A stretch of DNA of 64,000 nucleotides from Branchiostoma floridae (lineage: Eukaryota; Chordata; Leptocardii; Amphioxiformes; Branchiostomatidae). Where the stretch lies: contig NC_049997.1 of the NCBI RefSeq assembly GCF_000003815.2, positions 16,937,708-17,001,707 of the forward strand. The letters run 5' to 3'. Both the position numbers and the translations under genes were made by a program. The notes below the pieces were generated by a model. The model ran no database searches, had not been told where the DNA came from, and saw only the letters and a program-made list of their open reading frames with translations. Shown one piece after another: positions 662-62,976 of the stretch (position 1 is its first letter; every line of letters begins with the position of its first letter).

Positions 662-715
662 CTGTAGCGCCAATTCGTTGTCATTTCCAGAACAGCTAGA
701 ACAGAAGATCCCCAT
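662..715 (-). CDS. Gene A, first coding exon (partial gene) of the IL-1-like family; MGIFCSSC start
   Basis: An 18-codon exon reads MGIFCSSCSGNDNELALQ and ends in phase 0 at a good donor (CAG|GTAAGTG, plus positions 655-661). Glycine 2 and serine 6 fit the N-myristoylation consensus, and cysteines 5 and 8 are placed for palmitoylation, so the product may be doubly acylated and membrane bound. The exon belongs to the same module as exon 1 of genes C and E: a TATA box about 90 bases upstream, a short leader containing a TGTTCTGAGGTGTCGAGG-type segment, and a CACTTGACTTGGC sequence just inside the intron. No second exon (RQTL type) is visible before the window ends. The start was chosen because it follows the TATA box at the same distance as in C and E. 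The family assignment rests on promoter and exon structure only, because the trefoil exons are not in the window. Confidence 0.6.
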
Positions 716-803
716 GATCAAAGCCTGTGCTTTACTCTTCTTCTCCCTCGACACCTCAGAACAAACTTCGGCACGGTAGTGAGAGAGAAAAACATTCTCA
801 CCC

Positions 804-812
804 TCTTTATAT
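804..812 (-). promoter_or_regulatory. TATA box of gene A
   Basis: On the minus strand the sequence reads AATATAAAG, about 90 bases before the ATG of exon 1. The neighbouring bases (TTAGACCTGG before, AGGGTGAG after) match the promoters at 17767-17775, 28991-28999 and 42402-42410, so it is part of a duplicated core promoter. Confidence 0.6.
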
Positions 813-844
813 TCCAGGTCTAATAATAGGAACAGGTGGGGGCA

Positions 845-1195
845 ACATGGGTCGGTGAAAATATCAGTACCTGAAGACTGTTTGTGCGTGTTTTTAAAGT
901 TGCTAAGCTAGCCATTCTCACCTGTAACATTATCTGAGGACCTCTGTACGGGTATGTCATTCAAAACAGAACATGCTAATCAACTTTGTGTCATTTTTAT
1001 TCAGTTGCAACAAATGAGAGGACTCATCCATACCAAGAACAATAACTCTTATTCTGGTTATATTTTTGGTATTGTTTGTGCTTGTAGCTGTCTATGGTTG
1101 GAAAGAATTTGACTCAAGCAGCTGATGACGGTTTGCTGCGATATTTGGCATGGGTGCTTGTGTCGTAATATATACTCATTATTGCAAAAATTACA
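845..1195. repeat. Upstream ~330 bp repeat (R1), single diverged copy behind gene A
   Basis: It begins GTCGGTGAAAATATC and carries the landmarks GTTTTTAAAGTTGCTA, GACCTCTGTACGGGTATG, TTCAAAACAGAACATG and ATTCAGTTGCAACAAATGAG in the same order as the six-unit arrays upstream of genes C (17.8-19.8 kb) and E (42.4-44.5 kb). It is more diverged than those copies. Confidence 0.6.
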
Positions 1196-1239
1196 TAATT
1201 AACACACACAGAAACGCAAAAAAATACAAAGGACAAAGA

Positions 1240-3513: not shown

Positions 3514-6500
3514 CTAAAACCTGTCCTGCAAAGTCTAGACATTTAGACCTAGACCTCTGAGTGTTGTTTTGATTATGACAGGCAATCCCTGCTTTACAGA
3601 TCATCAAATTTAAACATGCCCTCCCACCAGTCATGATATCGACCGCTTCGTACAACGGATACCTCATTGAAAAAACAGGGTCGCATGGAAGAGGCACCGG
3701 GCAGGTGGTATGGGCTAAACTTACGCGGAGGAACAAGCGCAGAGGTAAGCTAGAACTGACAAGTTTGGTCTTCTGTTAAAATAGCTCTCCTTACCCCGTG
3801 CAACAAATACTACTGTATAATTGACATTTCCAGACATAAGAAAGCAACATTGATTGATATGCCAGACACGTATCTTAACAGGTTAAAAAAAAAAGTTATG
3901 AAACATTACTGTTGAAAGAAATATTACAGCATCGCAACTAGAATTGAGTCAACGATTTATGGTTACGGGTATGGGTGAAACATGGGTCAGGCCCTCCTTC
4001 TGACCCACAAAGGTAAATTTGCTGTACAATGAGGGAGGGGGGCGACGAAGATTACATCGGTGATGAAGCAATGTCAATATTCGTGAGTTTGAATTTACAC
4101 CACATTCCCCTCGATCCTTAAGCCACTCCAAATTGCTATTGTAGACTCCGGTGATGCCATGTACAGCGCAGAGAGTGGTGAAACGCTTTTCATATCCGTG
4201 CTGCACCCAAACTAACAGATACCAGTGGCTGTTGTGTCACCTCGGCGGAAATCTTAGCTTATATTAGATAAAGAAGAAAAAGAAGAACCCCTACCTTCCA
4301 ACTCATTTTCAGGCCCATTAACGAAACCACGACATATTTCCCTTGGTCTGAGACAACTGTAGGTGTTGAATGCAATATGAAAGAACTCTAACCAACCATT
4401 ATGATACAGCTAGCTACATTTATGCAATTACCAAGAAGCGAGAGAAAGTCGAATGTCCTAGAATATATTAGACATACTCGTATATATGCACATAGATGTG
4501 TATGGATCTTTCCACTGTTACATATCTATGATTGTTACCATGTGACCTGTACTTAGCCCAGTTGGGCAAATATGTGCAATGAAGTTATTCATTCATTCAC
4601 TATCTACTCCCACCAAAAAAAAATATAGAGGGTCTACATGGTGAGTATTTAGCAAGGCACTATAAATTCAGGAGGCCTGGCATTTCGTTATTGCGAAAGG
4701 TTTTGAGAAGAGAATCCATCGGATTTTTGTATAATTTTCATGGAAATCATTCGTCTGGAAAAACTCGACTAAGCAATTCGTGGAATTTGTCAAAAACGTT
4801 TAACGATGGATTCTGAATAACAGAAAACAAATGATTTTGCTATATAGAACTGAGTCATCTTACAGACAGTTGTACCTTTCTACTACCATTCTTCGATAGG
4901 ATTGTTAAGCCGTAGACAATGCTGTAGGGTTGATTTTATTTGATCTATTCGTCTGTATAGTGAGAAATACAGCAGTACAGCCAGGGCTACCCAACTAGCC
5001 GGAGGCTATTATCAAGGGCTAGCCCTGGTAACAACACAATATACAATAACAGCAAAACGTTTACCGATACATGAAGTTTCTTTTTTGAACTAGGTCATAC
5101 AGGCAACGCAAGATACGGAGGGTTGATGCGAATTAGGATTCTATCATGGTCAGGCGAAGGATACGCATGGTTACAGCACATGGAATTGAAGGAACTAATT
5201 ACGCATTAATAATAATTTGCCGCTATTAGACCATGTTGATTTGATTATATGGATGGCATCCTCGATCTGGGAATCCCAAAACTGATGCGAGCCTGCGAAC
5301 AAATTAGAATGAAAAAATACCAAAAGACTTTTGCCTTTACTATGAAATCTAAGTGGTTGAAAAATGGGCAACAACGGTGTTAGTTTGCAAAACTGAACAA
5401 ATTGTTCGTTTTTGTTTCTCCGCATCCTTGTAGACGTTGGAAATGAGGCTGATATTCTGTCACATTAGCGTACGTTTTCCTGTAATATCTGTTGCAACGT
5501 AAGGCATTCATTTGCTCATTTTACAGCTGTGCAGTACAATCTATGGTATGGTTGAAACCATGAGTCTTTTGAGGCCCGCTCCTTCCAACTCCTGTGACTC
5601 TCGCAAACTGTGCCCCATTGCCATCTAACTCCTCTGGCGTGTTTTCTGTTTTATTTGGTCAATTTTCTACTATTTTTCCAGCGACCTGTGGAGCCTGGTA
5701 GAGGCTAGGGAAGGTCAGCCCAATGAGCTCCTTGGTCAGCCTGACCCCTCTTTAAAAAATAGATGAAATATAGAAAAAGTAAGGTATACCGGCGTCGAGA
5801 CAAGACAAGAGAGGGGGGGGGGGGGGTAATCCCTACTTCACCCATACCCGGCGCTCAAAACAACATATTCCCATAGCCTCTATCTGCCGTCAGACGATGA
5901 CCTCTGACCTGCACAACTGGCTCCACCACAGTAAATGACATCAGCGTGTCGCTACTATTCTACTGGCACTGGGTGACAGAAATCGTAGAGTGAGGAACGC
6001 AATGTAATTAGGCAAAATGAACGTCTTCGAGTTTTGAAGTGATTTTCCTCTTGTATTTCATTGATATTTCCAGTGCTTGTGAACGTGTACACCTACACTA
6101 CTTCAGCACCTGCTGACGGCACCTATGTTTTACTGGAGTTTGTTCAGTCTGGAAAGTTCTTCTACGCCAGCAAAAACAACCCACAAAAGCTGCGTCTAAA
6201 GGTGAGTTACAAACAAATAAGGAAAAGCGTCATATATAAATTGTGTTGGCAGGGGTACCTAAGCATTTGCACGTGCACGAACCCTACGAGATTCGTACGA
6301 ACATTATGTGATACGCACGGATCACTATGCGAAAACGTACGAACCTTATGTGATTCGCACGAATCACTATGTGACACACACGAACGTTATGCGATTTGCA
6401 CGAACCGATTTGCGCGAAACCGGCCAACCACCGCCGGGTCACGTGACATTGCGTCATTCGCATAAGGTTCGTGCAAATCACATAAGGTCGTACGTTTTCG

Positions 6501-7608
6501 CATAGTGATTGTGGAAATGCTGTGCTGTAGAGCTATTGATCTTTCAAGTGTGGTAACACGTTCAGCCAAATGTTAAGAACAGAGTTGATTTATCGTTAAA
6601 GAGATTCATCATTCACGTAGGAGGGGGGATGGGGCAGATGATCTACCACGGCAAGCCTGACCAAGTCTCGTACTCTCTCGCGAGACTTGGTCACTTTCCG
6701 TGAACTGATAGCCATCGAAAATTTTGAGGGTTTTTTTTGCATTTAAAACTGCCGCTGTTAGAAGATAATTTTGGAGAAACCAGAGTCAATGTAATGATTG
6801 TTATCATGCTTACAGGAGGGGGACTGGGACCCCTATTCAGAAAATCCTGAAGACATCTCGACAACTTCGGACCCGCGAGTGTTCCTGATGAAACGGAGTG
6901 GGTCAGATGTCGTGTTTACCCATCACGGCTTTTCTGGTGCTGCCATCTCCGTGTTTCCCAACCCAGAAAAGCCGGCTGAAAACAAGTCCGAAGGTACAGC
7001 ATTTGACCGTCTCTTTTATCCATCGATATCCTCCTACGCAGGGACATCCAACGGCGAAACAACGGATGTACCCTGCTTTCTCAACCGTCATTCTTAGTTC
7101 CAGACAACCCTGCTTGTAAATATGAATGAACTTACTGCCGGCTTATATATGCGAGATCCCTTTTGAAAACGGAAAGGCCCATTCTCTTTGAGACGTTGAG
7201 ACTTTGTTAGAAAATCCATTAGTGACGTGCCCCAGGGCACGCCACTAATCTTCCTGGACTTCATACATAGATAACATATTACATACAGTTGTCTGATTGG
7301 CTGACAGCCGGTTTGTGGCGACGCCCACAGTAACCAAGAGTGACGGTTGAGAAAGCAGGGTACATCCACCCTGGCGTTTTCACTGTTGGATGTCCCTGCG
7401 TAGGAGGATGCTTTTATCACTTTTTAAACGTCTTTGACAATTTGGCCATATGCATATAGCGCTCCACGCCTGACTTAATCTCCAAGCGGTGGCAGCCAAA
7501 CAGTATCCATGTAAGCAATCTTCATTCGACCCCCAAAGACATGGATACTGTCTTTCTGTCACCTTAGAATCACATACACAAAGTTGTTTATCATATATTT
7601 GCGCATAA
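3185..7608 (+). CDS. Gene B: spliced IL-1-like beta-trefoil family member (last exon tentative)
   Basis: Exons: 3185-3205 (MAVEPGK, phase 0), 3600-3744 (or from 3582, see findings; ends phase 1), 6074-6201 (ends phase 0 after LRLK), 6816-6993 (ends phase 1) and tentatively 7568-7608. Frames join at each junction; the product is about 171-177 aa. Exon 2 contains PPVMISTASYNGYLIEK, exon 3 PADGTYVLLEFVQSGKFFYA, exon 4 TTSDPRVFLMKRSGSDVVF; these correspond to successive beta strands in the paralogues. There is no signal peptide and no myristoylation glycine; the start MAVE resembles the MAEV start of gene D, both preceded by AAC. Intron 1 holds a GT/GA microsatellite, intron 3 a foldback element, and a MITE lies just after exon 4. 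The last exon (reading SHTQSCLSYICA, stop at 7606-7608) was chosen from its acceptor after TCTTTCTGTCACCTTAG and the AATAAA at about 7787; it has no paralogue match and may be wrong. Receptor-ligand function is inference from fold resemblance. Confidence 0.65.
3238..3509 (+). repeat. (GT)n/(GA)n microsatellite in intron 1 of gene B
   Basis: Imperfect GT repeat from about 3240 followed by a (GA)n tract from about 3461, starting only ~30 bases after the exon 1 donor. First introns of A, C, D and E are also GT-rich on the transcribed-sense strand near the donor. Confidence 0.9.
4535..4605 (+). mobile_element. LINE 3' tail
   Basis: The sequence GACCTGTACTTAGCCCAG followed by GTGCAATGAAGTTATTC and a CATT-rich end matches the other LINE tails in this window. 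It lies inside intron 2 of gene B, with no coding part left. Confidence 0.45.
4915..5045 (-). mobile_element. Short retroelement 3' fragment with 9 bp hairpin
   Basis: CCAGGGCTA near 4981 and TAGCCCTGG near 5021 are inverted copies around GC-rich sequence, and the adjacent segment reads (minus) CAGACGAATAGATCAAATAA, like a retroelement tail. Located in intron 2 of gene B. The rest of intron 2 (5046-6073) shows nothing recognisable. Confidence 0.3.
6262..6521. mobile_element. Foldback MITE, 260 bp, in intron 3 of gene B
   Basis: Ends are AGCATTTGCAC (6262-6272) and its near-perfect inverse GTGGAAATGCT (6511-6521). The interior is built from repeats of a CGTACGAACCTTATGTGATT-type unit, several in direct order on the left arm and inverted on the right arm (6450-6510), so the transcript could form a long hairpin. 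Short ORFs here are artefacts of this repeat. Confidence 0.6.
7031..7410. mobile_element. MITE of about 380 bp directly after exon 4 of gene B
   Basis: The ends are inverted copies: TCCTCCTACGCAGGGACATC at about 7031 and its complement GATGTCCCTGCGTAGGAGGA at about 7387-7407. Similarity continues inward (the peptide-like reading VPCFLNRHS appears from both ends on opposite strands). The element begins only ~37 bases after the exon 4 donor. Confidence 0.65.
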
Positions 7609-7980: not shown

Positions 7981-8229
7981 AAGTAAAAAAAAAGTAAAGG
8001 ATAAAGCTTAACATCCTAGTTAACATATATATAAGACTGACCGTACTTTTTTTCATAAATAAACCAGGAGAGAATGGACAACATCTTAAACTTGTTACTC
8101 CGAAACTCCGCTGTTGCTCGGATGGTGACTGCATGGAGGTTGTGGAGTAACCACCAAACCACTGCAAGTTAGTCCAAGTGGCTGCCGAGCATCAAGATCA
8201 GCCGAGATTTTTCTTAAAGTGTGTCGATG

Positions 8230-10600: not shown

Positions 10601-10722
10601 AGCAAGCAAGATCCAATCCTACATACTTGATCTTCTTCGTCAGCTTAGACCAAAACTCGCCACAGAAATGCGGCAACAAGATTCTTAGCTGCTTTATATA
10701 CCAGTTCTAAAATCAAATGTGT
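10600..10722 (-). pseudogene. Relic promoter and leader of a family member without first exon
   Basis: On the minus strand a TATATAAAG box (10692-10700) flanked by TAGAACTGG is followed by CGCATTTCTGTGGCGAGTTT and GGTCTAAGCTGACGAAGAAG, matching the leaders of genes C and D. Where the initiator should be, the sequence reads ATGTAGG, so the frame stops at once. I see no downstream exons. It is a dead or promoter-only copy. Confidence 0.5.
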
Positions 10723-14197: not shown

Positions 14198-17100
14198 TTA
14201 TTTGTCCATGCTCGGTGTGGGTTCAGGGAATGGCACAACTTCCAAACGATCAGCACTTGTTCTCTCTTTGGTGAATCCCGCAAAATGTACCGGTTGAAAC
14301 TGTTGAGACTCTTTTGGCCAATCTCCTGTGAACATATTCCAAAATTACGGCTTTTTCACCAAATCATTCTATCGATTTAACCTAATTTTTTAAATCTTTA
14401 ATCTTACATTTATTTTTGACCCACACATGTACTGCTAACAACGCAAAATTTATCTTATAGACAGGATCACCCTGTAAATAGCTATAGCCACTTTAGAATA
14501 ACTTGCCTACAGATCCCAGTTATACCGTATACGGTCGTGTACGAAGTATTGGGAAAAGAATACTGACCAATATTACTGATTTCATGGATTTTTAGCAGAC
14601 ATTTTTGTATTTTACCGTTCCACTATCTTATCGTTACATTTTATCGTTAGACTATATAAATCCAATAACAAAGAATTATGGGAAGAGTAAAGACATTTGG
14701 ATACTGGACCATACAACTGCACTAAAAGAGACAAACCTTACCTTCTGGCATGAGGACAGCAATTTGATTGTTGTCCTCATCTTCAACAAAAGTGATGACG
14801 TTGCCCTTGCTTTTTTCGTAACAAGAAGTGAAAATGAAGTCAGATCCATCCGAACTCATCAGGAACATGCGTGGGTCGTTAATTGCCGTGATGTCTTCAG
14901 CATTTTCCTCGAAGTTCAGAATATCATCACCCTGTGGGCAAAAAGAAATTATATATGTATGATGGTCCTTATTCTACTAAGAACAACTTAATTAGCTTAA
15001 TCTAAATAAATATTTGATTAGCAAGCTGATGACAAGTTTTGCCTTCTTTATCTCCAACCAATACACCTTACCTGAATGAGCGCGAGCTGTTTGGGTGCGT
15101 TCGGCAGGGCGAAGATGTACCTTTCAGACTGCAGAAACTGCAGTACAACATATGTCCCAGTCGGTTCACCAACTTGGAGCTTCTGGTAGCTGTACACAAG
15201 CAGAATCGCTGAAAGAAACAAGATTTCGAATATCTCATACCTCCGTGAAATATTTTCCTTGCAATAAATGTTATGTTTCATGGTTTGTGGTCGAATGTTT
15301 TTGTCAACATGTTACCTTCGCCAAGAGTGTTGTGTTTCCTGAGACGTTGAAGGGTTAAAAAGGTGTGGGTTTCATAGCTGTTTGTCCGACAAGCTAAATG
15401 AATGAGGATATATATATCACAAGAAGGGTAATAACTCAACTATTTCAACATAACTCTATCCTTCCCTTTGGTCAGAAGCAGACAGACATGCCATATGCTT
15501 ATTTTCATCTCTAAGATTCAATTGAATTTTTGTTTCGTTGCTGGAGTGAGGCATGAATTACTTCAGAGCGGCAGTCAGGTCCTGAATGTGCGTTGTGTTT
15601 ATCAACTAACTAAAAGATACTTTTGAATAAGATACATTGAACAATACGTATGCCGTAGAATACTATATTTTCAGTATTGAATGATAGAAAAATCATACAT
15701 GCGGCCATTTTTAAGTAAAGGTGGCCATTATTACACATTTATCATGCAAATTATGTTCATGCGCGAAATTGACTTATGAGACTTCCATTACCTTCGTACT
15801 TGTTACCCGGCGTCAGGTTCTCAAACCGAGACGCCCTCCATCTTTTTTTGTCGTTAATAGTCACACGTTTGGGCTGGAGGAAGCCTGTAGACGACGTGGT
15901 GTTGTTCATTATCACCATTGGATTTGCTTCACTAAACTTGAGCTGAATCTTATGAAAAAAATGTATAAAAAGTTAAAACAATACAAGATAATATCTATAA
16001 TTGATGTATCATCTATTTCAAGTTGTTCATAAATATGTTAGCATTTCCGCCTATGACAGCGCTGTAAACGTCCAAATGTTCTTTAAAATGTGACCGGTTT
16101 GGCGGAAGGGCGCGGTAATAGGCCGAAATTGCGCGGTTGTCTTTCTAACTTTTGCTACGTACACCTTGGTGATCGTTATAGCTGAGCATATATGTTTTTA
16201 TTTCCTATCATTTGTGTGCATGGGAAACAATATCTGCCAGCGAAGCCTCTTTGTATTAGTCCGCAGCAACGGTGATGCGTTTTTTTTTTTGTTCGCTTGA
16301 TGATCCAAATAGCAGCGTTTTTCATGCACTTCCAATGAATTTGCGTCACCGGATATAATTTTTTTTTTCAATTTTCATCTTTCACAAACATGAAGCAATT
16401 AGCTTCTATATCATGTAAGCCGCTATCATGAGAAAATATAAGCAGCTTCGAAGAAAAAATGTGAAAAATGAAGCTTCTTAATCTTTGGTCCAAAGTTAAA
16501 ATGTCACTGTATGGTCTACCCCAAATAAAGAGACAACAGACGATACCGAGAAGTTAATCAGAAAGAAGCGGAAAACGTTAACGGTCTTCTACCGTATTAA
16601 TTAAGTCCTACGTTTCTTGGTATTCAAAATATTCTTCAATTTGCCATATTACCTTTTTTTCTTGTTTTTTTTTTTTTTCTTGTAAAAACAAATTATCAAC
16701 AATTACGTTCCTGGTGCAAAACCACTGCTGTCATCGTGCACACTGCGTATTGGCGGCTCGTTCTCTTAGATTTATACTACCTCTACCAAGCAGCCACACA
16801 GCCATACATGAGAAAATATATCTCAAGAAAAAAACTACACATAAGGGCTTCTGTAATATTTTCATTCACGTCTGTACAGGTAACGGTAGAGTCCTTTCAG
16901 CTGGGAAGAACACACACACACACAACCCTACACACACACATAAAAGCGCCCGCGCGCACGCACAAACACACACACACACACACACACACACAAACCAAGA
17001 TGTTGTTTTAAAAAGTAGTAGTTAAAGTATTGTCGGAGACCACTTTTTGTCGGGGGCGGTCTTATACAGAGGAACACAGGAACAAAAAAACGTCTTATGA

Positions 17101-17692
17101 TAGAGGGGTGTGGGAATGGCGTGATTCGAAAATGTTGTTACTCTGTTTGTTCCTGGAACTATCTCCATGAGCACACAAAAGCACTCCGCGGCAAATCAAG
17201 CCTTACCGTTGCAATTGCTGCCGACTCTACCTGCACGTCACCTCGAGAATTCTTGTTTCCGGCGACAAGAGTCTGCCTCTATGAACAAGAAACATTAATG
17301 GTTAAAATTTAAACATTGACACGGATATGGCCAATTAATGATCTAAGAATATCGATCCTTTATTCACCTTTGTACGCATTACGCATTCTACCAAAACTGT
17401 CCCTGAAGTTCCAGAGCAAGCTGCAAGAGAGCTCGCGCTAACACTACTCCTTCCTTACATCCAAAGCTATGCGTCACCAAAACATTATTCGGAAAGTTAT
17501 CCGACCCAAAAACACAACAAAGACACACACACACACACACACACGCGCGCGCGCAAACACACACGCAAACACACAAGCAGAAACGAAACGAACACTCAAA
17601 AAATTCAACAGCGAAGGCAAGTCATGATCAAGACAAGTGACGTTTACCTGTGGCGCAGGCTCTACGGTCTTCTTGGAACTGCGATTTCCCAT
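14198..17692 (-). CDS. Gene C: complete six-exon IL-1-like beta-trefoil protein, 237 aa, MGNRSSKK start
   Basis: Exons in order: 17692-17648 (MGNRSSKKTVEPAPQ), 17278-17207 (RQTLVAGN start), 15948-15807, 15208-15072, 14931-14742, 14325-14198 (stop TAA). Phases 0,0,1,0,1; every frame closes and all introns are GT-AG. Residues 40-86 hold strands such as NPMVIMNN; about 88-132 contain GTYVVLQFLQSERYIFA and end LALIQ; about 133-195 contain NDPRMFLMSSDGSDFIFTSC and GNVITF; the tail has ESQQFQPVHFAGF and ends PSMDK. There is no signal peptide or membrane segment; G2, S6 and K7-K8 fit myristoylation plus a basic patch. The hydrophobic spacing resembles the last strands of interleukin-1/IL-18, with an intron where IL1 genes have theirs. 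Predicted: a leaderless cytokine-like or membrane-tethered trefoil protein. A divergent FGF-like or other trefoil remains possible. Closest in organisation is gene E. Confidence 0.8.
16905..16995 (+). repeat. (CA)n microsatellite in intron 2 of gene C
   Basis: Imperfect CA repeats. Just before it (16868-16905) the segment CGTCTGTACAGGTAACGG with TAGAGTCCTTTC recurs at 29399-29435 with small changes; its meaning is unknown. Confidence 0.8.
17520..17577 (+). repeat. (CA)n microsatellite in intron 1 of gene C
   Basis: CA/CG repeats 70 bases inside intron 1, GT-rich in the sense of gene C, equivalent to 42131-42215 in gene E. Confidence 0.85.
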
Positions 17693-17766: not shown

Positions 17767-17775
17767 CTTTATATA
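17767..17775 (-). promoter_or_regulatory. TATA box of gene C
   Basis: TATATAAAG on the minus strand, preceded by AGACCTGG, 75 bases before the ATG. The leader (TTCTGGCCCAACATTT, CTGCTGAGGTTT, AGCTGACGAG) is nearly identical to that of gene E, so the leader is only about 45 bases if transcription starts ~30 bases downstream. Confidence 0.7.
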
Positions 17776-17810
17776 CCAGGTCTAACAATAGAAACGTGTG
17801 GGAATAACAA

Positions 17811-19775: not shown

Positions 19776-20170
19776 ACTTTGATTACGTAATTCAAGTTGG
19801 TTATGGGCTTGATCCCTCTTTCTTCATAACTACCAATAAAAACGTTTAACATCTTACAAAATAAACTGGTGTGAAAAAATGATTCAAAGAAACGACATTG
19901 TTGTTGCGTGTTAACCATGTTTATATAAATGTGTGTGTTTTGAACGTTACTACGCAGTATATTACTTGTCGTAACTAAATATACACAAACGCATACAGGC
20001 ACGCAAACAAAATACACACAAACGACCAAGCAAAACAGCAGCCAAGTCAAGTCAAGGAGCTTTTTTATCACCAACCCCTCAACCTGGTCATCGTCTTACA
20101 CCGTTTTGAAGTCGAAAACATCAAGTTCTTCGTTCCCATGGCAGAAAACTTCTTGTGTTTTGGTGTTGTT
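18740..20170. repeat. Near-identical duplicate of 43425-44853
   Basis: After one single-base indel near 18829, positions match the second copy at a constant offset of 24683. I found only a few single-base differences in the first 400 bases and none in the rest up to about 20165. Outside these borders similarity falls to about 90-93% by eye. Confidence 0.85.
20030..20120 (-). pseudogene. Relic of a first-exon module
   Basis: Minus strand: ATGACCAGGTTGAGGGGTTG, then a stop and AAGCTCC before CTTGACTTGACTTGG, the sequence that follows the exon 1 donor in genes A and D. The donor GT is gone. It is followed by GTGTGTATTTTG-type intron sequence. The identical copy is at 44713-44803. Confidence 0.4.
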
Positions 20171-25266: not shown

Positions 25267-28200
25267 TTACCAGCAGAAACACGGGCAACATTTAGTAGTA
25301 GGAGAAGGAGGAGGAGGTGGAGGTACGATTTGAAACCTCTGCGACTCCAATGATGGTCCTTGTCCTGTTAAAGTTAAAGTTATAGTCAAACAATAGAATC
25401 CTTCATCTCGACATTACATAGTTTCAGAAAACGAGAAATATTCAATTTATAGAAGATCTTATTCCACTCACCTACATGTAATCATAACTAACTCAGTTAA
25501 TATGATTAATAATGAAGTATAGTATGATTGATAACTCTATTCCATATTTTAATCTTACAGATATTGTAAATGTTGTGGTTATATATGCATTGCATTGCAT
25601 CGTATTGCATGACTATGTATACAATTGCAGACAATAAAAATTCAGCAGAAATGACAAAAAGACCTTCAAAAGTCGTACCTTGGAGCTTGAATAAAGCCCG
25701 ATTTAGTTGTTTTTTTTTAAACTCAGTCAAGGTGATAACTTGTGCTTTGCTTTTGTCGCCTGGCTGTTGTTGTGAGCCCACACAAGAGGCGAATATAAGC
25801 TCTGTCATGCCAACGTGCGTTTTCATCAGGAACACTCGTGGGTCGGCAGTTGTGTTGATGTCTTCAGCATTTTTCGGATATTCCGGTTTAAAGTCCTTCG
25901 GCAACTGTGAGAGAAGCAACAAACATGTGAGAGACCATGTTACATATAGCTATTTTTTATTCACTTCGTGAAACGAAGTGTTTGCAGTCAGTGCTGTTTT
26001 GATGTCAGGTGGTCGTTTGTCAGCCTGATAACTAGGGAACGCGTGAATGGATGGTTTTGATATTTGGTATGTGGGTAGGATTAGACATGACGAAGGAATG
26101 GCAGGAATTGCGTTACGGCAGGGCGCTCTACCGGTGTGTTATGGTACTGCAGCGGAACTTCCGGTTTTGCTATTTTTTGTTTGGGACTTGTTTGGGTGAT
26201 GATTTTTAAGTGGTAGGTAGCTGTGTAAAAGCATGAAAAGGTGTGTAAGTTTTGGCCACCTAGGGGTTTCGCAAGGGCGGTGAAAGTAATTCTTGTTTTA
26301 GGTTTTGAGAAGGAATAATGAGAGAAGGGGTTGATGGATGTTAATGACTGTAGGTATGCAGATAGCTTACGTAATGATGTGCATTCTTGTATGCTTGTTA
26401 TGCAAATTAGGTGGTAATTTGCATAATACAATAGGTATGTGTAGAAACCCTCAAAACTCTGTGTCTGTGAACAGTCCAGCTCCTTCACGCCAACACAGAT
26501 TGATCTGATATTTGGTATGTGGGTAGCTGTTGAGAAGGAGAAGAAACGTACGAGGCGTTTTTTGTCTAGTGGCTTTTGACGGTTTTGCAGGGGATGTTTG
26601 TACTTGAAAAATAGTGTTTAGTGTGCTAAGTGTGGCGATTACGCAATAGTGGTTTATATTTAGGAGTTACGTCATTCTGCGTGGGTTGGAGTTTTGCATG
26701 GCCCCGTCCCCACAGGAAGTGACCCCAAAGGTCATAGTTGCGCAATAGAGGACAGCACGACTTATATATACCAGACGATTACAAGACAATGGTACTACAG
26801 GGACAGTACATTATACATGATGGGGTGTAAACGTTTCCTATAAGATTTGATAATCTGTAGATTAAGGGCAATGAATAAGGGCAATATAATGGTGATATTG
26901 TTTACAGGGGCCTATATTATACGTTTTAAAAGGGTTGTACATGTAACCGTTACTACCGGTACAATACATTGTTGAACAAAGCAGGGTTTGTTTTTCACAG
27001 TAACTTGTAGTCATTGATGAGAGTGTTTATAGGGATTCTACATTAGACATATGGGATACACAATGTAGTGGACTGCATGTTACATCAGCATTGTTGCAAC
27101 CATTGATACATTTGCTTCCGGTGGTGGATTTGTTATCCTACCTGCTGAAATCGGACAAATTTCTTGTTGGATAAGCATTTGGTCTCTCTTCCAAGGAAGA
27201 AATTATGCATCCTGTATGTTATCCCGGACAGAAAAAGGTGTCGCGAGGCGTATAATCCTATTGACTGACAAACCCCGTGCGGGCGGATAAAGCGTTCCCT
27301 CCACGGCAGGACTTGGGCCAGCTGGACTGATTTCACCGGGCGACGCGCGGCTTGTCATGGTCGTCAGTAGGGCTCCCATAACCTGGCTAAATGGTTGGAA
27401 ATTAACCACTCTACCCGGAAAAGTCAATACTTGGACAAATACATGCGATGTACATCTCAAAGTTGAAATTTTATCAACTCACCATTTGGTTTTTATGTTT
27501 TGTTTTGTTTTTTTTGTTCCTATGAAAACACCCACCGACTCCAGATATAAAGAACAACCCATTGAACAGTATCGCCTGTTTCATTCATATCTTCCTTCCA
27601 AAACATCAAGGACAATTAAGTTCAGAAGAGGATCGAGTAAGTGTCTGTTGTAACTTACCTGCAGACTAGTATACTCTGGTTCATCTTCATCGAAGGTAAA
27701 GTACATTGTGGACTTTTCAAACTGCAGCACAACATAGGTGCCGTCTGCAGGTGGTATACTGGTGTAAGAGTACACTCGCACTTTCACTGAATGGAAGAAT
27801 GAAATACAGGATCAAAATTTGTTCAACTTTAAGTCTTAACCATATTTTGTATAATATAAGAAAAATTCAGCAATTATAAAATATAAACGCTACTGGAACT
27901 AGCTTGTAAGAGGTCCACTTACCGTTCTCTGGCGGCACATTTTTGTTCTGCGTCCGGAACACCTTAGTTCCCGGATCCCCATTTTTCAAGTATTTCTGAA
28001 CAAGGTAACATTCAAGGTACTGGTTGAGTATGCTCTGTGGTTCATATGGACTCGGTGTTGAATTCCCATCAAATACAATCGTCTGAAAAAAAGGTGAATA
28101 ATCAAAATAAGTGGATGGGCCTTACAATCCATATTTTGCTACATTTGTCTCTTTCCTACTCATAAATACCAACATGTACACACCCACCCGAACAAACAAA

Positions 28201-28686: not shown

Positions 28687-28875
28687 CACACACATACACA
28701 GTTAAGTACGCAAGCATGAACGTAGAAACTCACACACCTGTACGTCCGCACGTCGAACTTAAAAGCATAAACATATACTTTCGCGAACACAAACAGACAA
28801 TCAAACAAGTCAGTAACCAAGTCAAGTCAAACTTACTGTTGCCTTTCCGATCAAAATTTGGCCCACCTCTGCCAT
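25267..28875 (-). CDS. Gene D: complete five-exon IL-1-like beta-trefoil protein, 216 aa, C-terminal CCPCFCW
   Basis: Exons: 28875-28837 (MAEVGQILIGKAT, phase 0), 28082-27923 (ends phase 1), 27786-27659 (ends phase 0), 25904-25679 (ends phase 1), 25364-25267 (stop TAA). All frames close; the short RQTL-type exon of C and E is absent. Residues about 14-66 include SILNQYLECYLVQKYLKNGD; about 68-109 include PPADGTYVVLQFEKSTMYF; about 110-184 include TTADPRVFLMKTHVGMTELI, FASC, PGDKSKAQVITL. The last exon reads LESQRFQIVPPPPPPS and ends TTKCCPCFCW; ESQxFQxV matches gene C. There is no signal peptide and no N-terminal glycine; four cysteines at the very end suggest palmitoylation at the C terminus instead of N-terminal acylation. 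Closest to gene F in the FASC/PGDK region. An alternative first exon lies at 28450-28482. Confidence 0.82.
28450..28482 (-). CDS. Possible alternative first exon of gene D (MADEGEETK) with defective donor
   Basis: It lies 355 bases inside intron 1 and has its own TATA box (28588-28596) and a leader homologous to that of the main exon (TTGGTCTGAGCGGACGAGGA; GGCGTCAAC before ATG). The place of the donor reads CTA|ATAAGTTTGAC instead of ACA|GTAAGTTTGAC, so GT has become AT. A weak in-frame donor AAG|GTGCTA six bases earlier (exon 28456-28482) would also leave phase 0 and could join exon 2. Either a working alternative promoter or a decaying duplicate. Confidence 0.4.
28588..28596 (-). promoter_or_regulatory. 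TATA box of the alternative first exon of gene D
   Basis: TATATAAAG on the minus strand, followed by GGGAGCAATAC and a leader similar to that of the main promoter. Confidence 0.5.
28605..28700 (+). repeat. (CA)n microsatellite in intron 1 of gene D
   Basis: CA repeats between the main and the alternative first exon; GT in the sense of the gene. Confidence 0.9.
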
Positions 28876-28974: not shown

Positions 28975-28999
28975 CGTTATATACCACCCTCTTTATATA
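28975..28999 (-). promoter_or_regulatory. Main promoter of gene D with tandem TATA boxes
   Basis: TATATAAAG at 28991-28999 with TAGACCTGG before it, and a second TATATAACG at 28975-28983. The ATG is about 110 bases downstream of the first box. Confidence 0.65.
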
Positions 29000-29549
29000 C
29001 CAGGTCTAAAAATAGGTACAGGTGGGGATACTGTGATTTATATTCAATGTCAACAGACCATAAATCAACGGATACGTCGTTGTAAAAATGTAAAAACGCG
29101 GGAAATCAACACTTGCTAGTTTAGTCCCTTTATTTAGTACAGAATATTCTCAAACGTTAAAAACGTGTTATTGCAAGGAATGGTGCTAATTCTATACATG
29201 GTTAGTTAATTCATTCTTACCACACTGAATTATCATAGAAAATGACGTATTCCAGGAGGTAAGAGGAGCATTTGCATTTGTTCTTTCAAGAGGACCCATG
29301 CCATGACCGTCCGCAGTTCAAGTCTATCTATTCATTACCCTAAGGTGTCAGTTGTGATCAAAACGTTTACGCATATGTAACTCTGTGATAGTTTCGTTCA
29401 CGTCTGTACAGGTAAAGTTAGAGTCCTTTCGCATTTTGACCATGGGGAGAAGTTGTCTAGGTTTCGGCCCCTTCCCATCAACACATACATAAAGTTTGTG
29501 ATAAACGCACGCAAAGGCATACGCACACATAGCAGGTGTTTTTCCACCA

Positions 29550-35111: not shown

Positions 35112-42323
<7,212 letters not shown>

Positions 42324-42401: not shown

Positions 42402-42410
42402 CTTTATATA
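42402..42410 (-). promoter_or_regulatory. TATA box of gene E
   Basis: TATATAAAG on the minus strand with TTAGACCTTG before it, 79 bases before the ATG. The leader is shared with gene C apart from a small insertion (ATAACATTTACA). Confidence 0.7.
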
Positions 42411-42445
42411 CAAGGTCTAACAATGGAAACGTCTGGGAATAACAA

Positions 42446-44460: not shown

Positions 44461-44853
44461 TTTGATTACGTAATTCAAGTTGGTTATGGGCTTGATCCCT
44501 CTTTCTTCATAACTACCAATAAAAACGTTTAACATCTTACAAAATAAACTGGTGTGAAAAAATGATTCAAAGAAACGACATTGTTGTTGCGTGTTAACCA
44601 TGTTTATATAAATGTGTGTGTTTTGAACGTTACTACGCAGTATATTACTTGTCGTAACTAAATATACACAAACGCATACAGGCACGCAAACAAAATACAC
44701 ACAAACGACCAAGCAAAACAGCAGCCAAGTCAAGTCAAGGAGCTTTTTTATCACCAACCCCTCAACCTGGTCATCGTCTTACACCGTTTTGAAGTCGAAA
44801 ACATCAAGTTCTTCGTTCCCATGGCAGAAAACTTCTTGTGTTTTGGTGTTGTG
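43425..44853. repeat. Near-identical duplicate of 18740-20170
   Basis: See the partner entry; constant offset 24683. The copy includes the last R1 units and the exon 1 relic at 44713-44803. Beyond 44853 the two regions continue to be similar up to about 20470/45155 but with frequent differences. Confidence 0.85.
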
Positions 44854-49100: not shown

Positions 49101-52100
49101 ATAGAAGTAACGCACATTTTCTTCAAGATTCTGAAAGTTCGATCGTATTGGGTCTCTTTGCGGTTACCGAAAGATTCACTTATCGGTTACTGTAGGTGAA
49201 CCTTCATTGGCTTTCAAGCCCTGTAGAAAAGTAAGGAAGTAATTTTTAGTACTCAAATCACTTTTTGTCTTCTTCTTACCGGTTGTACTATTGAATTCAA
49301 GTGATAGAAGTAACGCACATTTTCTTCAAGATTCTGAAACTTCGATCGTATGGGGTCTCTTTGCGGTTACCGAAAGGTTCGCTTAACGTTTACCTAGGCG
49401 AACCTTCATTGGCTTTCAAGCCCTGTAGAAAAGTAAGGAAGTAATTTTTAGTACTCAAATCACTTTTTGTCTTCTCCTTACGGGTAATACTATTGAATTC
49501 AAGTCATAAAAGTAACGCACATTTTCTTCAAGATTCTGAAAGTTCGATCGTATGGGGTCTCTTTGCGGTTACCGAAAGGTTCGCTTAGCGTTTACCTAGG
49601 CGACCCTTCATTCGCTTTCAAGCCCTGTAGAAAAGAAAGGAAGTAATTTTTAGTACTCAAATCACTTTTTGTCTTCTTCTTACCGGTTGTGCTATTGAAT
49701 TCAAGTGATAGAAGTAACGCACATTTTCTTCAAGATTCTGAAAGTTCGATCGTATGGGGTCTCTTTGCGGTTACCGAAAGGTTCGCTTAGCGTTTACCTA
49801 GGCGACCCTTAATTCGCTTTCAAGCCCTGTAGAAAAGAAAGGAAGTAATTTTTAGTACTCAAATCACTTTTTGTCTTCTTCTTACGGGTAATACTATTGA
49901 ATTCAAGTGATAGAAGTAACGCATATTTTCTTCAAGATTCTGAAAGTTCGATCGTATGGGGTCTCTTTGCGGTTACCGAAAGGTTCGCTTAGCGTTTACC
50001 TAGCCGACCCTTCATTGGCTTTCAAGCCCTGTAGAAAAGTAAGGAAGTAATTTTTAGTACTCAAATCACTTTTTGTCTTCTTCTTACGGGTAATACTATT
50101 GAATTCAAGTGATAGAAGTAACGCACATTTTCTTCAAGATTCTGAAAGTTCGATCGTATGGGGTCTCTTTGCGGTTACCGAAAGGTTCGCTTAGCGTTTA
50201 CCTAGCCGACCCTTCATTCGCTTTCAAGCCCTGTAGAAAAGAAAGGAAGTAATTTTAGTACTCAGATCACTTTTTGTCTTCTCCTTACCGGTTGTACTAT
50301 TGAATTCAAGTGATAGAAGTAACGCACATTTTCTTCAAGATTCTGAAAGTTCGATCGTATGGGGTCTCTTTGCGGTTACCGAAAGGTTCGCTTAGCGTTT
50401 ACCTAGGCGACCCTTCATTCGCTTTCAAGCCCTGTAGAAAAGAAAGGAAGTAATTTTTAGTACTCAAATCACTTTTTGTCTTCTTCTTACCGGTTGTGCT
50501 ATTGAATTCAAGTGATAGAAGTAACGCACATTTTCTTCAAGATTCTGAAAGTTCGATCGTATGGGGTCTCTTTGCGGTTACCGAAAGGTTCGCTTAGCGT
50601 TTACCTAGGCGACCCTTAATTCGCTTTCAAGCCCTGTAGAAAAGAAAGGAAGTAATTTTTAGTACTCAAATCACTTTTTGTCTTCTTCTTACGGGTAATA
50701 CTATTGAATTCAAGTGATAGAAGTAACGCATATTTTCTTCAAGATTCTGAAAGTTCGATCGTATGGGGTCTCTTTGCGGTTACCGAAAGGTTCGCTTAGC
50801 GTTTACCAAGGCGACCCTTCATTGGCTTTCAAGCCCTGTAGAAAAGAAAGGAAGTAATTTTTAGTACTCAAATCACTTTTTGTCTTCTTCTTACGGGTAA
50901 TACTATTGAATTCAAGTGATAGAAGTAACGCACATTTTCTTCAAGATTCTGAAAGTTCGATCGTATGGTGTCTCTTTGCGGTTACCGAAAGGTTCGCTTA
51001 TCGGTTACCGTAGGTGAACCTTCATTGGCTTTCAAGCCCTGTAGCAAAAGTAAGGAAGTAATTTTTAGTACTCAAATCACTTTTTGTCTTCTCCTTACGT
51101 GTAATACTATTGAATTCAAGTGATAGAAGTAACGCACATTTTCTTCAAGATTCTGAAAGTTCGATCGTATGGGGTCTCTTTGCGGTTACCGAAAGGTTCG
51201 CTTAGCGGTTACCGTAGATGAACCTTCATTGGCTTTCAAGCCCCTGTAGAAAAGTAAGGAAGTAATTTTTAGTACTCAAATCACTTTTTGTCTTCTTCTT
51301 ACGGGTTGTACTATTGAATTCAAGTGATAGAAGTAACGCATATTTTCTTCAAGATTCTGAAAGTTCGATCGTATGGGGTCTCTTTGCGGTTACCGAAAGG
51401 TTCGCTTAGCGTTTACCAAGGCGACCCTTCATTGGCTTTCAAGCCCTGTAGAAAAGAAAGGAAGTAATTTTTAGTACTCAAATCACTTTTTGTCTTCTTC
51501 TTACGGGTAATACTATTGAATTCAAGTGATAGAAGTAACGCACATTTTCTTCAAGATTCTGAAAGTTCGATCGTATGGTGTCTCTTTGCGGTTACCGAAA
51601 GGTTCGCTTATCGGTTACCGTAGGTGAACCTTCATTGGCTTTCAAGCCCTGTAGCAAAAGTAAGGAAGTAATTTTTAGTACTCAAATCACTTTTTGTCTT
51701 CTCCTTACGTGTAATACTATTGAATTCAAGTGATAGAAGTAACGCACATTTTCTTCAAGATTCTGAAAGTTCGATCGTATGGGGTCTCTTTGCGGTTACC
51801 GAAAGGTTCGCTTAGCGTTTACCTAGGCGACCCTTCATTGGCTTTCAAGCCCTGTAGAAAAGTAAGGAAGTAATTTTTAGTACTAAAATCACTTTTTGTC
51901 TTCTCCTTACGGGTAATACTATTGAATTCAAGTCATAGAAGTAACGCACATTTTCTTCAAGATTCTGAAAGTTCGATCGTATGGGGTCTCTTTGAGGTTA
52001 AGGTTACCAAAAGGTTCGCTTAGCGTTTACCTAGGCGACCCTTCATTCGCTTTCAAGCCCTGTAGAAAAGAAAGGAAGTAATATTTAGTACTCAAATCAC

Positions 52101-52128
52101 TTTTTGTCTTCTTCTTACCGGTTGTACT

Positions 52129-52402
52129 NNNNNNNNNNNNNNNNNNNNNNNNNNNNNNNNNNNNNNNNNNNNNNNNNNNNNNNNNNNNNNNNNNNNNNNN
52201 NNNNNNNNNNNNNNNNNNNNNNNNNNNNNNNNNNNNNNNNNNNNNNNNNNNNNNNNNNNNNNNNNNNNNNNNNNNNNNNNNNNNNNNNNNNNNNNNNNNN
52301 NNNNNNNNNNNNNNNNNNNNNNNNNNNNNNNNNNNNNNNNNNNNNNNNNNNNNNNNNNNNNNNNNNNNNNNNNNNNNNNNNNNNNNNNNNNNNNNNNNNN
52401 NN
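52129..52402. other. Assembly gap (274 N)
   Basis: Run of N within the satellite; the true number of units is unknown. Confidence 1.
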
Positions 52403-53755
52403 ACCGAAAGGTTCGCTTAGCGGTTACCGTAGATGAACCTTCATTGGCTTTCAAGCCCTGTAGAAAAGTAAGGAACTAATTTTTAGTACTCAAATCACTT
52501 TTTGTCTTCTTCTTACCGGTTGTACTATTGAATTCAAGTGATAGAAGTAACGCACATTTTCTTCAAGATTCTGAAAGTTCGATCGTATGGGGTCTCTTTG
52601 CGGTTACCGAAAGGTTCGCTTAGCGTTTACCTAGGCGACCCTTCATTCGCTTTCAAGCCCTATAGAAAAGAAAGGAGGTAATTTTTAGTACTCAAATCAC
52701 TTTTTGGCTTCGCCTTACCGGTTGTACTATTGAATTCAAGTGATAGAAGTAACGCACATTTTCTTCAAGATTCTGAAAGTTCGATCGTATGGGGTCTCTT
52801 TGCGGTTACCGAAAGATTCGCTTAGCGGTTACCGTAGGTGAACCTTCATTGGCTTTCAAGCCCTGTAGAAAAGGAAGGAACTAATTTTTAGTACTCAAAT
52901 CACTTTTTGTCTTCTCCTTACCGGTTGTACTATTGAATGCAAGTGATAGAAGTAACGCACATTTTCTTCAAGATTCTGAAAGTTCAATCGTATGGGGTCT
53001 CTTTGCGGTTACCGAAAGGTTCGCTTAGCGTTTACCTAGGCGACCCTTCATTCGCTTTCAAGCCCTGTAGAAAAGAAAGGAAGTAATTTTTAGTACTCAA
53101 ATCACTTTTTGTCTTCTCCTTACGGGTAATACTATTGAATGCAAGTCATAGAAGTAACGCACATTTTCTTCAAGATTCTGAAAGTTCGATCGTATGGGGT
53201 CTCTTTGCGGTTACCGAAAGGTTCGCTTAGCGGTTACCGTAGGTGAACCTTCATTGGCTTTCAAGCCCTGTAGAAAAGTAAGGAAGTAATTTTTAGTACT
53301 CAAATCACTTTTTGTCTTCTCCTTACGGGTAATACTATTGAAATCAAGTGATAGCAGTAACGCACATTATCTTCAAGATTCTGAAAGTTCGATCGTATGG
53401 GGTCTCTTTGCGGTTACCGAAAGGTTCGCTTAGCGTTTACCTAGGCGACCCTTCATTGGCTTTTAAGCTCTGTAGAAAAGAAAGGAAGTAATTTTTAGTA
53501 CTCAAATCACTTTTTGTCTTCTCCTTAACGGTTGTACTATTGAATTCAAGTGATAGAAGCAACGCACATTTTCTTCAAGATTCTGAAAGTTCGATCGTAT
53601 GGGGTCTCTTTGCGGTTAAGGTTACCGAAAGGTTCGCTTAGCGGTTACCGTAGGTGAACCTTCATTGGCTTTCAAGCCCTGTAGAAAAGTAAGGAAGTAA
53701 TTTTTAGCACTCAAATCACTTTTTGTCTTATCCTTACGGGTTATACTATTGAATT

Positions 53756-53855
53756 NNNNNNNNNNNNNNNNNNNNNNNNNNNNNNNNNNNNNNNNNNNNN
53801 NNNNNNNNNNNNNNNNNNNNNNNNNNNNNNNNNNNNNNNNNNNNNNNNNNNNNNN
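53756..53855. other. Assembly gap (100 N)
   Basis: A round 100 N run, usually a placeholder for a gap of unknown size, within the satellite. Confidence 1.
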
Positions 53856-59241: not shown

Positions 59242-60464
59242 TGAGGTCCCCGAACTCTAGTTACATCTTGCTTATAATATCTTATCAGATGTATTTGAAA
59301 TTTCTTCTTCTACAAGGTTTACATTCAATAAGACGTGATATTGACACGAAATGACCATGCGATACATAGCAAAAAATGACACAGATTTCTATGTGTGTAT
59401 AGTTTAAACACATGATTTGTAATTTTGAATCCAGGTCTATGAGTTTAACGAATTCTGGTTTAAACCCATGTGGTAAAAACCTACAGATTGATAACAGATA
59501 AAACGCTAAAATTAGCTGCTCGCTAACTTCCCTTCTATTCTATAGGTATTTAAGTCACCGTTTACTTTGCTAATTGAGGCCGCTTATTAAGCATTTCTGC
59601 CCATCGCATTAAAATATTTAGTGATATATTTTTAGTTTGTTGAATTATCATTATGATAATTATCTTTTAGAAACAAGCTGTCAATACGAAATTTTCAATG
59701 CTAACCAATCACCACTCCCTGTATATCATATAAGGAACCTTCTTAAAGTGTGCTTCTAAACTTCTAGGAGATCTTGATGCAAATCCTTCAGAAATAGTAT
59801 TTCCTAGTTAACATTAATATGTCCGGCTATTACTCTATTCTGTGTCCTGACACAGTATGTATTTGGTTATGATATAAAAACAAGCATCGTAAAACTAGCA
59901 GCTTATTTTGTTGCTAACATTCTGTTTCTAAGTTAGTCATCTTTGGATAGGATTCAAGAAATGTTCTTGATTTAATGAAGTCATATTTTCACTCAATCGT
60001 CACTTTATATTAAAGGACGCTCGGATACCAAAGATGAACTGTTGATGAAATAAACAAGGTTCGTTTCGTGTAGAATATAACAGCGAGTTCAGCATAGCGA
60101 AAACAATCATTGCTTTTTTTTAATCATGATACCAAAACAAAACAAGCATTTTTGGCTTATTTTCAGAACGTTTTGCACAGAATTGAAGCGTTTTACCACC
60201 GAGTTGGCCATGTTGTTTTGATTTTATGGATGCATCAATTTTCAGGCGTTTATCTAAAAATGTTTTCTTAAAACACGGCTGAAAAATGAGAAAGAATTAC
60301 ATAGCAAATTGCAAACAAAATATCGAAAAAAGGGAGAAAAGTTGTAGAATGTCAAAGTCAATCCCATAGTCAAAGGAGAAGAAGATGTAAAGAAACAGCA
60401 AAAGAGAATCTATTGTTCAATAAACAATAAACTAATAAAGTATATGATTACTCATTTGTTCAGC
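59242..60464. other. AT-rich spacer, nothing recognised
   Basis: No family exon, promoter or repeat end was found. Confidence 0.4.
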
Positions 60465-60707
60465 CTCACTGCACTTGCGTCAAGCTTGCGTCATTGCGGG
60501 GTTCTTAAACTGCGTCACTGTTTTGTTATTTTCTCCGATTTTTTATAATTTAGATATTGAGTAATATGTAAAACTATGACTTAGAAGACGACAAAATACA
60601 CAGAACGTAATAAAATTCATTCTTTAGCTCTTCAATTCGTTTAGTATCTTTCTAACAATATTCAATCTAACCCCGCAGTGACGCAAGCGTGACGCAATTG
60701 CAGTGAG
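60465..60707. mobile_element. MITE, 243 bp, ~39 bp inverted ends
   Basis: The left end CTCACTGCACTTGCGTCA and right end, inverted CTCACTGCAATTGCGTCA, continue to GCGGGGTT with four differences over 39 bases. The interior is AT-rich. Confidence 0.75.
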
Positions 60708-62744
60708 ATACCATCTTTAGATTTCATAATGAAGGCAACTTTTTCACCAAACATTTTTTATCTGCCCGCTCGCACCAGTTTGTGGTTTCCAGGATATCAC
60801 CCATGTAATTTAACCAACATGGCCTCATGTCGTATTTGCACGAAAACTTGTCTTTATCTCAAGAGAGTGACGACATTCGGTCTCCAAGCTGGACTTCCTG
60901 CTCCTGGACTGGATGTTTGTCAGACAGCTTGGAAACGCCCTCTAGCGGAACTGGTTGAAAATACTGTGATTCCAATGGTGCCCTTCCTGTGAAAATCATT
61001 TTTCAAGATGTCAGCATTACTATTTAGAATGTATAGCGACATGATAATGACCTTCTTTTCCCTTCTGTCTTTGGTTATTATTTCTTTGCAAATGAAAATA
61101 TCAAAACTGTGACAACCTGTCCTAATAAGAAAATTTTCCATCATGGCAAGCTCTTCGTGTACTGTAGACAAGTAATTTTTCCACATATGTGACGTCATCA
61201 CTGCGTCAAAGTTCGTCTGAAATCGGTAACGCCTTCTTAATTATTCCTCTCTCAAAGTAGTGGAATTTAAACCAACTACTTTGTGACAGTAGTGTTCAAC
61301 GCACGTACGTAGTTCAAAATGCATCCATTCCTGAGAAACGATGTGGGCCGTAGACTCTTGTGAGCAGTGAACACTAATGGAAATCTGAATTGGCGATAAT
61401 GTATAAATAGGCAAGTTCAGGGTGTCATAATCTCATCCGTGAACATTCCAGGTCATAAGAACTCACCCCACAAAGCAGCCCGCTATCTCAAGTGTCCAAA
61501 AGTCTAATTTTTAAACTTTCTAACCAGCGCAAGATTCCCACCGGTCAAAACTGCCGCCATCTTGGATATTCATTACGTCATTTTAGGGACTGACTACTTC
61601 AAATTAGGCCGAAAAGATGGACCAAAACCTAGTTTTTTTGCCTAATCTGAACCTCTGCAACTTACACTGCCTCACCAATATGAAATGTTTCTTACATTTT
61701 CCTGCTACAAGTCGAAAATAGGCTAAAATACTGTATGGACTCATTTTGGGCCTTCTGCGGCTGCGTCAATTAGGGTCATTGCCCTTGTGAGAACTCAGAC
61801 GATACCGGAGCCTGTGACACTGGCGCCCGATTACACTGGCGCAGGGTTGTAGCCAGCATCTGTCCTTCAGTCCTTTGAAGGAATTTTGCAGCTGGGGACT
61901 GAAAAAAGTTTTGCCATTCCGTCCCCAGGGACAGACAAAAATTGATATGTAAAGATATAAAAAAACTGAAACCCATGTGTTCTTCCTCACCAAAACAGAT
62001 GACATTGAACAGCTTAGTCTACAAACAAAATTTGCACCTCAAAATGCAGGAAATAGTGTTTCAGAGGGTCTAGGTTTCAAAATTTTCTGGGACCCAGACC
62101 CCCTAGAAATGACGTGCGACAACACGCCATGCCTTCGGTGCTCGATAGGATTCCCATCCAAAATCAAGGGGACTGAAAATGATTTCAGGCTGGCTACAAC
62201 CCTGCACTGGCGTTATACCTTTGGCATACAGTGCAACAAAATGCTAAATTTCGTGATTTGGGGCCATTTTTTAAACAAAAAAAGCACATATTTGGCCCCT
62301 ATAGCCTGGTTTTACAACTAGATGACTAGATGACTAGTTATATGCTGGTTGTTTTGAAAAACTCCATGTTGGTTGAACTCAGAAGTGCCCGTAACGCAAT
62401 GAAAAACTATCGGGGGGTTTCAGAGCACACCAACCTTCTCTACCGAGACTGGGGGCCGTTACCGACTTCGGACGAACTTTTACCAGGTGCTGACATTACA
62501 ACCCCGGAAATATCACGTGTCTGCAGCACTATGAAACTTCTATGTTAGATAACATGATTCGGTCAAAAATTCGGGTGTGAGACAAAAATTCTTGAGTCGA
62601 AGAATAGTTTTATTTTCTCATTATGAAATTTACCAACTCAAATGAACATTTACGCTAACAACGTGGCCGGTGTACTCAAATAGGGTGACACAATTTTAAC
62701 AGAACTGACAAATGAGACAAAAATCATGAATTCAAAATTAGTAC
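60708..62744. other. Spacer with repeat fragments; 3' side of gene F
   Basis: Contains an inverted relative of the 38.3 kb repeat (62035-62110) and one Helitron-type repeat unit (62215-62330). The final exon of gene F should lie here, but I could not identify it; a weak candidate after CTTCGACTCAAG (62555-62618, minus) has no match to the other tails. Confidence 0.35.
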
Positions 62745-62976
62745 CTTCGCGCTTGAGTCTAGCGGGGAACCTCTGGCTCTTTAGCAATGTGATGACGCGG
62801 GCTTTGTTTTTGTCGCCTGGGTTTTGCTGCGAGGCTATACATGAGGCGAACACGAAATCTGTCACCGCAAAATCTGCAGCTGGCACGGCACCAAGGACCG
62901 GTTTCATCAGGAACAGTCGCCTGTCGGCAGTTGTCGTTATAGCTTCGGCATCTTCCGTATCAAACTCCCCTGGTTC
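62745..62976 (-). CDS. Gene F: one trefoil exon of an IL-1-like family member (partial gene)
   Basis: A 232 base exon, phase 0 in (after TTTTACTTTCAG) and phase 1 out (GAAG|GTACTA), equivalent to 25904-25679 of gene D. It reads ITTTADRRLFLMKPVLGA, DFVFASCIASQQNPGDKNKA, RVITLLKSQRFP. Compared with D it has an insert of several residues before the F-x-F-A-S-C strand, and DPR has become DRR. The preceding exons must lie right of the window; no last exon was recognised, so whether the gene is functional is unknown. It shares FASC and PGDK with D, which marks a D/F subfamily against B/E. Confidence 0.72.

Follow-up and report, generated by a model that had tools for sequence, protein, structure and literature searches.

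The closest described counterparts of the genes reported here belong to the IL-1 family (IL-1beta, IL-18, IL-33, IL-36 and IL-37) and to its relative in the beta-trefoil superfamily, the FGF family. In IL-1beta genes the last introns typically have phases 1, 1 and 0, and the twelve strands lie in the last three exons, according to PMC4880838. Factors called IL-1-like have likewise been reported from invertebrates, as activities in echinoderms, tunicates and insects, none of them characterised at the sequence level according to PMC9020223. Here we describe a family of small, apparently leaderless proteins that has expanded in tandem and is encoded in a 64,000-nucleotide stretch of the Branchiostoma floridae genome (henceforth the window; C19:16937708-17001707, C19 standing for contig NC_049997.1, of 17,116,508 bases), the right edge of which lies about 115 kb from the end of C19. 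Judging from sequence comparisons, the conserved domain of the family is probably a 12-strand IL-1-type beta-trefoil, a reading to which we assign a probability of roughly 60%. No earlier description of such a family was found in the literature searched, which was mostly open-access.

The family resembles the IL-1 family in how predicted strands 4-12 are ordered and spaced, in the register of the profile alignment, in having introns of phases 1 and 0 within the domain, in showing no obvious leader and in the clustering of its genes. It differs in that its members do not carry the strict IL-1 signature, an extra intron precedes the last strand and a phase-0 intron precedes the domain; furthermore, the N-termini differ, the tail after the last strand is acidic or divergent, and there is no sequence identity at the vertebrate level. 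Going by exon sizes, FGF genes share the phases 1 and 0; the FGF family differs from this one in giving no profile signal to it.

An expanded family of spliced genes

Translation and tblastn bore out the homologous exons that the original prediction had placed in the window, linking genes A, C, D, E and F (gene A lies on the strand opposite to the other four); similar mobile-DNA repeats among genes A, C, D and E were excluded. Spliced models of C, D and E were built on GT-AG sites. The features of the genes are as follows (window coordinates, strand, description).

662..715, minus: gene B exon 1 (first coding), MGIFCSSCSGNDNELALQ; donor GT at 661-660; from the sequence read and the upstream promoter
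806..823, minus: gene B TATA-type core promoter; exact match to TTAGACCTNGNATATAAA and alignment
3600..3744, plus: gene A exon 3, IIKFKHALPPVMIS..., predicted strands 1-3
6074..6201, plus: gene A exon 4, VLVNVYTYT...TYVLLEF...KLRLK
6816..6993, plus: gene A exon 5, EGDWDPY...DPRVFLM...KSE
8068..8150, plus: gene A exon 6, ENGQHLKLVTPKLRCCSDGDCMEVVE, stop; weak match
10693..10710, minus: orphan copy of the family promoter; one mismatch, and alignment
14198..14325, minus: gene C exon 6, DWPKESQQFQPVHFA..., stop
14742..14931, minus: gene C exon 5, DPRMFLM, FIFTSC
15072..15208, minus: gene C exon 4, ILLVYSYQ...TYVVLQF
15792..15948, minus: gene C exon 3
17207..17278, minus: gene C exon 2, RQTLVAGNKNS...; homologous to D 39886-39963
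17648..17692, minus: gene C exon 1, MGNRSSKKTVEPAPQ; homologous to D 42273-42323
17768..17785, minus: gene C promoter
25267..25364, minus: gene E exon 6, QGPSLESQRFQIVPPP..., stop
25679..25904, minus: gene E exon 5
27659..27786, minus: gene E exon 4, VKVRVYSYT...TYVVLQF
27923..28082, minus: gene E exon 3
28837..28875, minus: gene E exon 1, MAEVGQILIGKAT
28992..29009, minus: gene E promoter
35809..35998, minus: gene D exon 5; ends at donor GTGTGG; read-through stop at 35771; last exon uncertain
36339..36493, minus: gene D exon 4, GLVNIYTYT...TYVVLQF
37163..37304, minus: gene D exon 3
39886..39963, minus: gene D exon 2
42273..42323, minus: gene D exon 1, MGNRSSKKTVGVEPAPP
42403..42420, minus: gene D promoter
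60859..60986, minus: gene F exon 6, RAPLESQYFQPVPLE..., stop
62745..62976, minus: gene F exon 5, DRRLFLM, FVFASC
C19:17009862 and 17009219, outside the window: gene F exons 3 and 4

When the five exon-5 peptides of the window were compared by tblastn, 8 of the 10 pairs gave E-values of about 5e-4 to 2e-17, and the remaining two gave 0.022 (C-D) and 0.008 (D-F). The sequence blocks said to be shared at constant spacing turned out to be less uniform. TYVVLQF is exact in C, E and D (at 15155, 27739 and 36434 respectively, all on the minus strand), and gene A has TYVLLEF (6121, plus strand); DPR[MV]FLM occurs in A, C, D and E, with DRRLFLM in F; among the five window members the strict F-x-F-x-S-C form is confined to C and F, with LIFASC in E and neither D nor A carrying it. 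Constant spacing does not hold, exon 5 of F having an insertion of about 10 amino acids (aa). At the nucleotide level, the 21-base TYVVLQF pattern had 11 exact matches genome-wide versus 3 for the pattern read backwards; within the window and with up to 3 mismatches there were 4 versus 3.02 expected, i.e., no excess over chance. The predicted length of 216 aa was recovered for E, whereas our model of C has 242 aa instead of 237. Of the partial members, the leftmost (715-662) is the first exon of a gene, B, that continues outside the window; the rest of B probably lies to the left and belongs to the copy whose exon 4 is at C19:16933497, a link that we infer.

The genome searched comprised 513,431,437 bases in 431 contigs. 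Exon 5 is present in 5 copies within the window and in 16 copies in the window plus flanks (15 on C19, 1 on C17). Genome searches with two family proteins as queries added one copy on C352 and, beyond it, none further; a search of the flanks gave a borderline fragment at 17019604. That the spliced genes form an expanded family is solid, and their small, diverged exons escape ordinary sequence searches.

Gene structure and coding evidence

Exon 4 is bounded by AG in 13/13 and GT in 13/13 copies, and exon 5 by AG in 14/14 and GT in 13/13, its donor falling at one alignment place in phase 1; for exon 3 the acceptor is AG in 10/11, and the 11 donors are 9 GT, 1 GC and 1 GA. Exon boundaries were partly chosen by the same signals, which makes these counts dependent on the models; the identical alignment place and phase of the splice sites across paralogues is the stronger point. 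Exon 5 probably ends at its GT donor instead of at a stop codon of its own. By comparing the DNA downstream of exon 5, we found a further last exon with the motif [LV]E[SA]QxF, present in h2, h3, p1, p2, g2, g3, g4, g5, E, C and F and weak in Q and A. This exon 6 was picked by conservation among paralogues, ahead of any comparison with IL-1. Models in which exon 5 ran on to a stop were dropped once the donor and exon 6 had been found. The same comparison yielded no accepted exon 6 for D or h1; in gene D, a candidate at 35215 (which would give 239 aa) was not accepted because its strand motif differs from that of other members.

Four window genes (B, C, D and E) have a TATA-type promoter in common. 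With up to 3 mismatches, TTAGACCTNGNATATAAA occurs 6 times versus 1.03 expected: exactly upstream of B, C, E and D, with one mismatch at 10693 and with three at 29037; the sequence flanking the promoter copies also aligns. No family exon was found behind the orphan copy at 10693-10710 (minus), which is perhaps what is left of a dead gene.

The family exons are under purifying selection. The proportion of synonymous differences (pS) exceeded that of non-synonymous differences (pN) in 155 of 169 non-independent pairs (82/91 for exon 4 and 73/78 for exon 5), and exon 5 of g2 and g3 gave non-synonymous and synonymous rates (dN and dS) of 0.07 and 0.49. There are in-frame stops in exon 5 of g1 and exon 3 of p2, and exon 3 of h2 is broken; with several copies broken, not all are working genes. 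Such damage, together with the missing clear last exon of D and A and the orphan promoter, is what one would expect if the loci were relics or repeats, an explanation that the excess of pS over pN and the conservation of splice sites and promoters make very improbable.

Similarity to IL-1 and intron positions

We compared the family with IL-1 proteins using a profile of 14 members (11 with exon 3 and 11 with exon 6), which replaced a five-member profile that had scored 21.6 in hhalign (a value attained in 1/200 column and 2/200 block shuffles). When aligned with seven human IL-1 proteins, the 14-member profile scored 25.9 (probability 13%, E-value 0.0022), with IL-18 residues 45-153 aligned. 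None of 80 column and none of 80 block shuffles reached this score, the largest being 17.7, and the reversed profile scored 12.4. The alignment runs in one register from strand 4 through the last strand, and this register was unchanged in nine IL-1 runs, i.e., the full set, seven leave-one-out sets (scores 19.2-30.7) and IL1B as template. Leaving out single family members gave scores of 23.8-27.7; a 14-sequence IL-1 set gave 23.1 (0/200 shuffles), the alignment stopping before the last strand. Among single-sequence alignments, IL-1A covered 69 columns and IL-37 covered 65.

By contrast, the family scored 10.0-11.6 against an FGF profile, which is background level (10.0 was reached by 35/50 and 42/50 shuffles), and the five-member profile likewise gave no FGF signal. 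As controls, IL-18, IL-33 and IL-1A were compared with the remaining IL-1 set, giving probabilities of 94.8, 71.2 and 94.7.

Exon 4 of the family is flanked by a phase-1 intron before it and a phase-0 intron after it, which the profile alignment places at a split codon at V40 of IL-1beta and after E83. The corresponding introns of human IL1B presumably lie in F42 and after V85, assuming exon sizes of 171 and 131 nucleotides; these sizes give phases II,0,I,I,0, as published. Two introns of the family thus probably fall within two residues of the IL-1beta places, with equal phases. The predicted domain occupies the last exons with phases 1 and 0, as in IL-1-type genes, and has an additional intron ahead of the last strand. 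Because FGF genes agree in both phases, the introns speak more for the FGF/IL-1 superfamily than for IL-1 itself.

Evidence against an IL-1-type domain

Several results weigh against the IL-1-type reading. The signal depends on which sequences are included: the lowest leave-one-out score (19.2) was obtained without IL-33, and without IL-18 only 44 columns aligned; IL-18 and IL-33 alone scored 15.1 (reached by 13/60 shuffles), and the IL-1 set without these two scored 14.0 (9/60). Among 22 single sequences the top score went to a decoy, RBP4 (23.0 over 16 columns), and IL-18 came second (22.8), off register. FGF scored 30.2 (probability 45.6) and 37.2 (probability 78.1) against IL-1, above the family. 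Considering these shuffle and control scores, the full profiles are above chance, yet the link between the family and IL-1 is weaker than that between FGF and IL-1. The intron before exon 3 is in phase 0, not 1, and the phase-1 intron between exons 5 and 6 has no IL-1beta counterpart. A Pfam search with C, D and E (models without exon 6) gave no match at E-values up to 10, and HMMER found no IL-1 chain in the PDB. The IL-1 signature, defined as [FC]-x-S-[ASLV]-x2-P-x2-[FYLIV]-[LI]-[SCA]-T-x7-[LIVM] partly after PMC7144542, was found in 0/14 family members and, in this strict form, in only 3/7 human members. AlphaFold gave exon 5 of D, modelled alone, a predicted local distance difference test score (pLDDT) of 51.2 and a predicted template modelling score (pTM) of 0.31, which for a single exon is uninformative. 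Finally, published accounts describe amphioxus as having yielded no IL-1 or IL-18 homolog (PMC3196919), place IL-1 genes in neither invertebrates nor jawless vertebrates (PMC9382457), and state that invertebrates have no IL-1, receptors being older than ligands (PMC9020223).

These observations can be explained in two further ways. The family may represent a beta-trefoil or other all-beta lineage, intracellular or lectin-like, which shares the FGF/IL-1 gene layout and has only the fold in common with IL-1. A weak, subset-dependent profile signal, the absent signature, N-termini that in some members suit membrane attachment over release, and introns that cannot separate IL-1 from FGF would all agree with this; we nevertheless consider it unlikely, as there is zero FGF signal while the IL-1 register is kept all the way from strand 4 through the final one. 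Alternatively, the genes may encode small all-beta proteins of a lineage-specific family that is unrelated and evolves fast, their likeness to IL-1 having arisen by chance among repeated hydrophobic strands. The missing Pfam and PDB sequence matches point this way, as does a 16-column decoy match that scores level with IL-18 alone. Chance would have to account for 0/160 and 0/200 shuffles, a reversed profile at background, a long colinear alignment and matching intron phases and places, and appears distinctly improbable.

The original prediction of an IL-1-like ligand family accordingly fared unevenly: the profile register, the two intron phases and a last-strand exon identified by conservation alone favour it, while the missing signature, the lack of an IL-1 structure by HMMER and a profile signal that vanishes with subsets or single sequences do not. 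The likeness to IL-1 is supported, not proven.

N-termini and a possible mode of action

Genes C and D start with MGNRSSKK, B with MGIFCSSC, E with MAEVGQ and neighbouring members with MADKGEE and similar sequences; read by eye, none resembles a signal peptide. A start of the form MGxxxS is the N-myristoylation pattern, and the predicted starts of B, C and D fit it. Downstream of exon 1 of E there is a second MADEGE-type start with a similar leader (28465-28491, minus), which may be a duplicate of the first exon of that gene or an alternative to it.

What lies beyond the protein models we infer. If the domain is of the IL-1 type, exons 1-2 would supply a short N-terminal region, which in C and D amounts to about 40 aa, and strands 1-3, 4-7, 8-11 and 12 would be encoded by exons 3, 4, 5 and 6, respectively. 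The protein would be made in the cytosol, some members perhaps being held at the membrane by N-myristoylation, and could leave the cell upon damage or lysis or when the N-terminal region is cleaved. Once released, it may act as a ligand of IL-1-receptor-like Ig/TIR receptors.

Other sequence in the window

A tandem repeat array of about 202 bp per unit extends over 46204-52931 and beyond (46 copies of a 300-nucleotide reference), with runs of N at 52129-52402 and 53756-53855. The first intron of gene D contains, on the opposite strand to D, a 612-aa open frame (39984-41822, plus) with what we take to be reverse-transcriptase-like motifs. A 125-aa open frame is present in two identical copies (19718-20095 and 44401-44778, both minus) as part of a longer duplicated block, and 19198-19350 and 43881-44033 encode one identical peptide. 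The observed/expected CpG ratio is 0.75 over the first 46 kb, which is not vertebrate-looking; an Rfam search gave no match.

Implications

It is possible, and we hold this more tentatively than the fold itself, that the family comprises true IL-1-family ligands of the lancelet and supplies the partners that invertebrate IL-1-receptor-like proteins have lacked. If IL-1-like ligands exist in an invertebrate chordate, they would be candidate partners for IL-1 receptors, and the 'receptor first' idea would become directly testable. Were they true IL-1 ligands, the origin of the IL-1 ligand family would predate vertebrates, and the lancelet would have undergone an independent expansion to a dozen or more linked genes, of which some would have a precursor anchored to the membrane by myristoylation.

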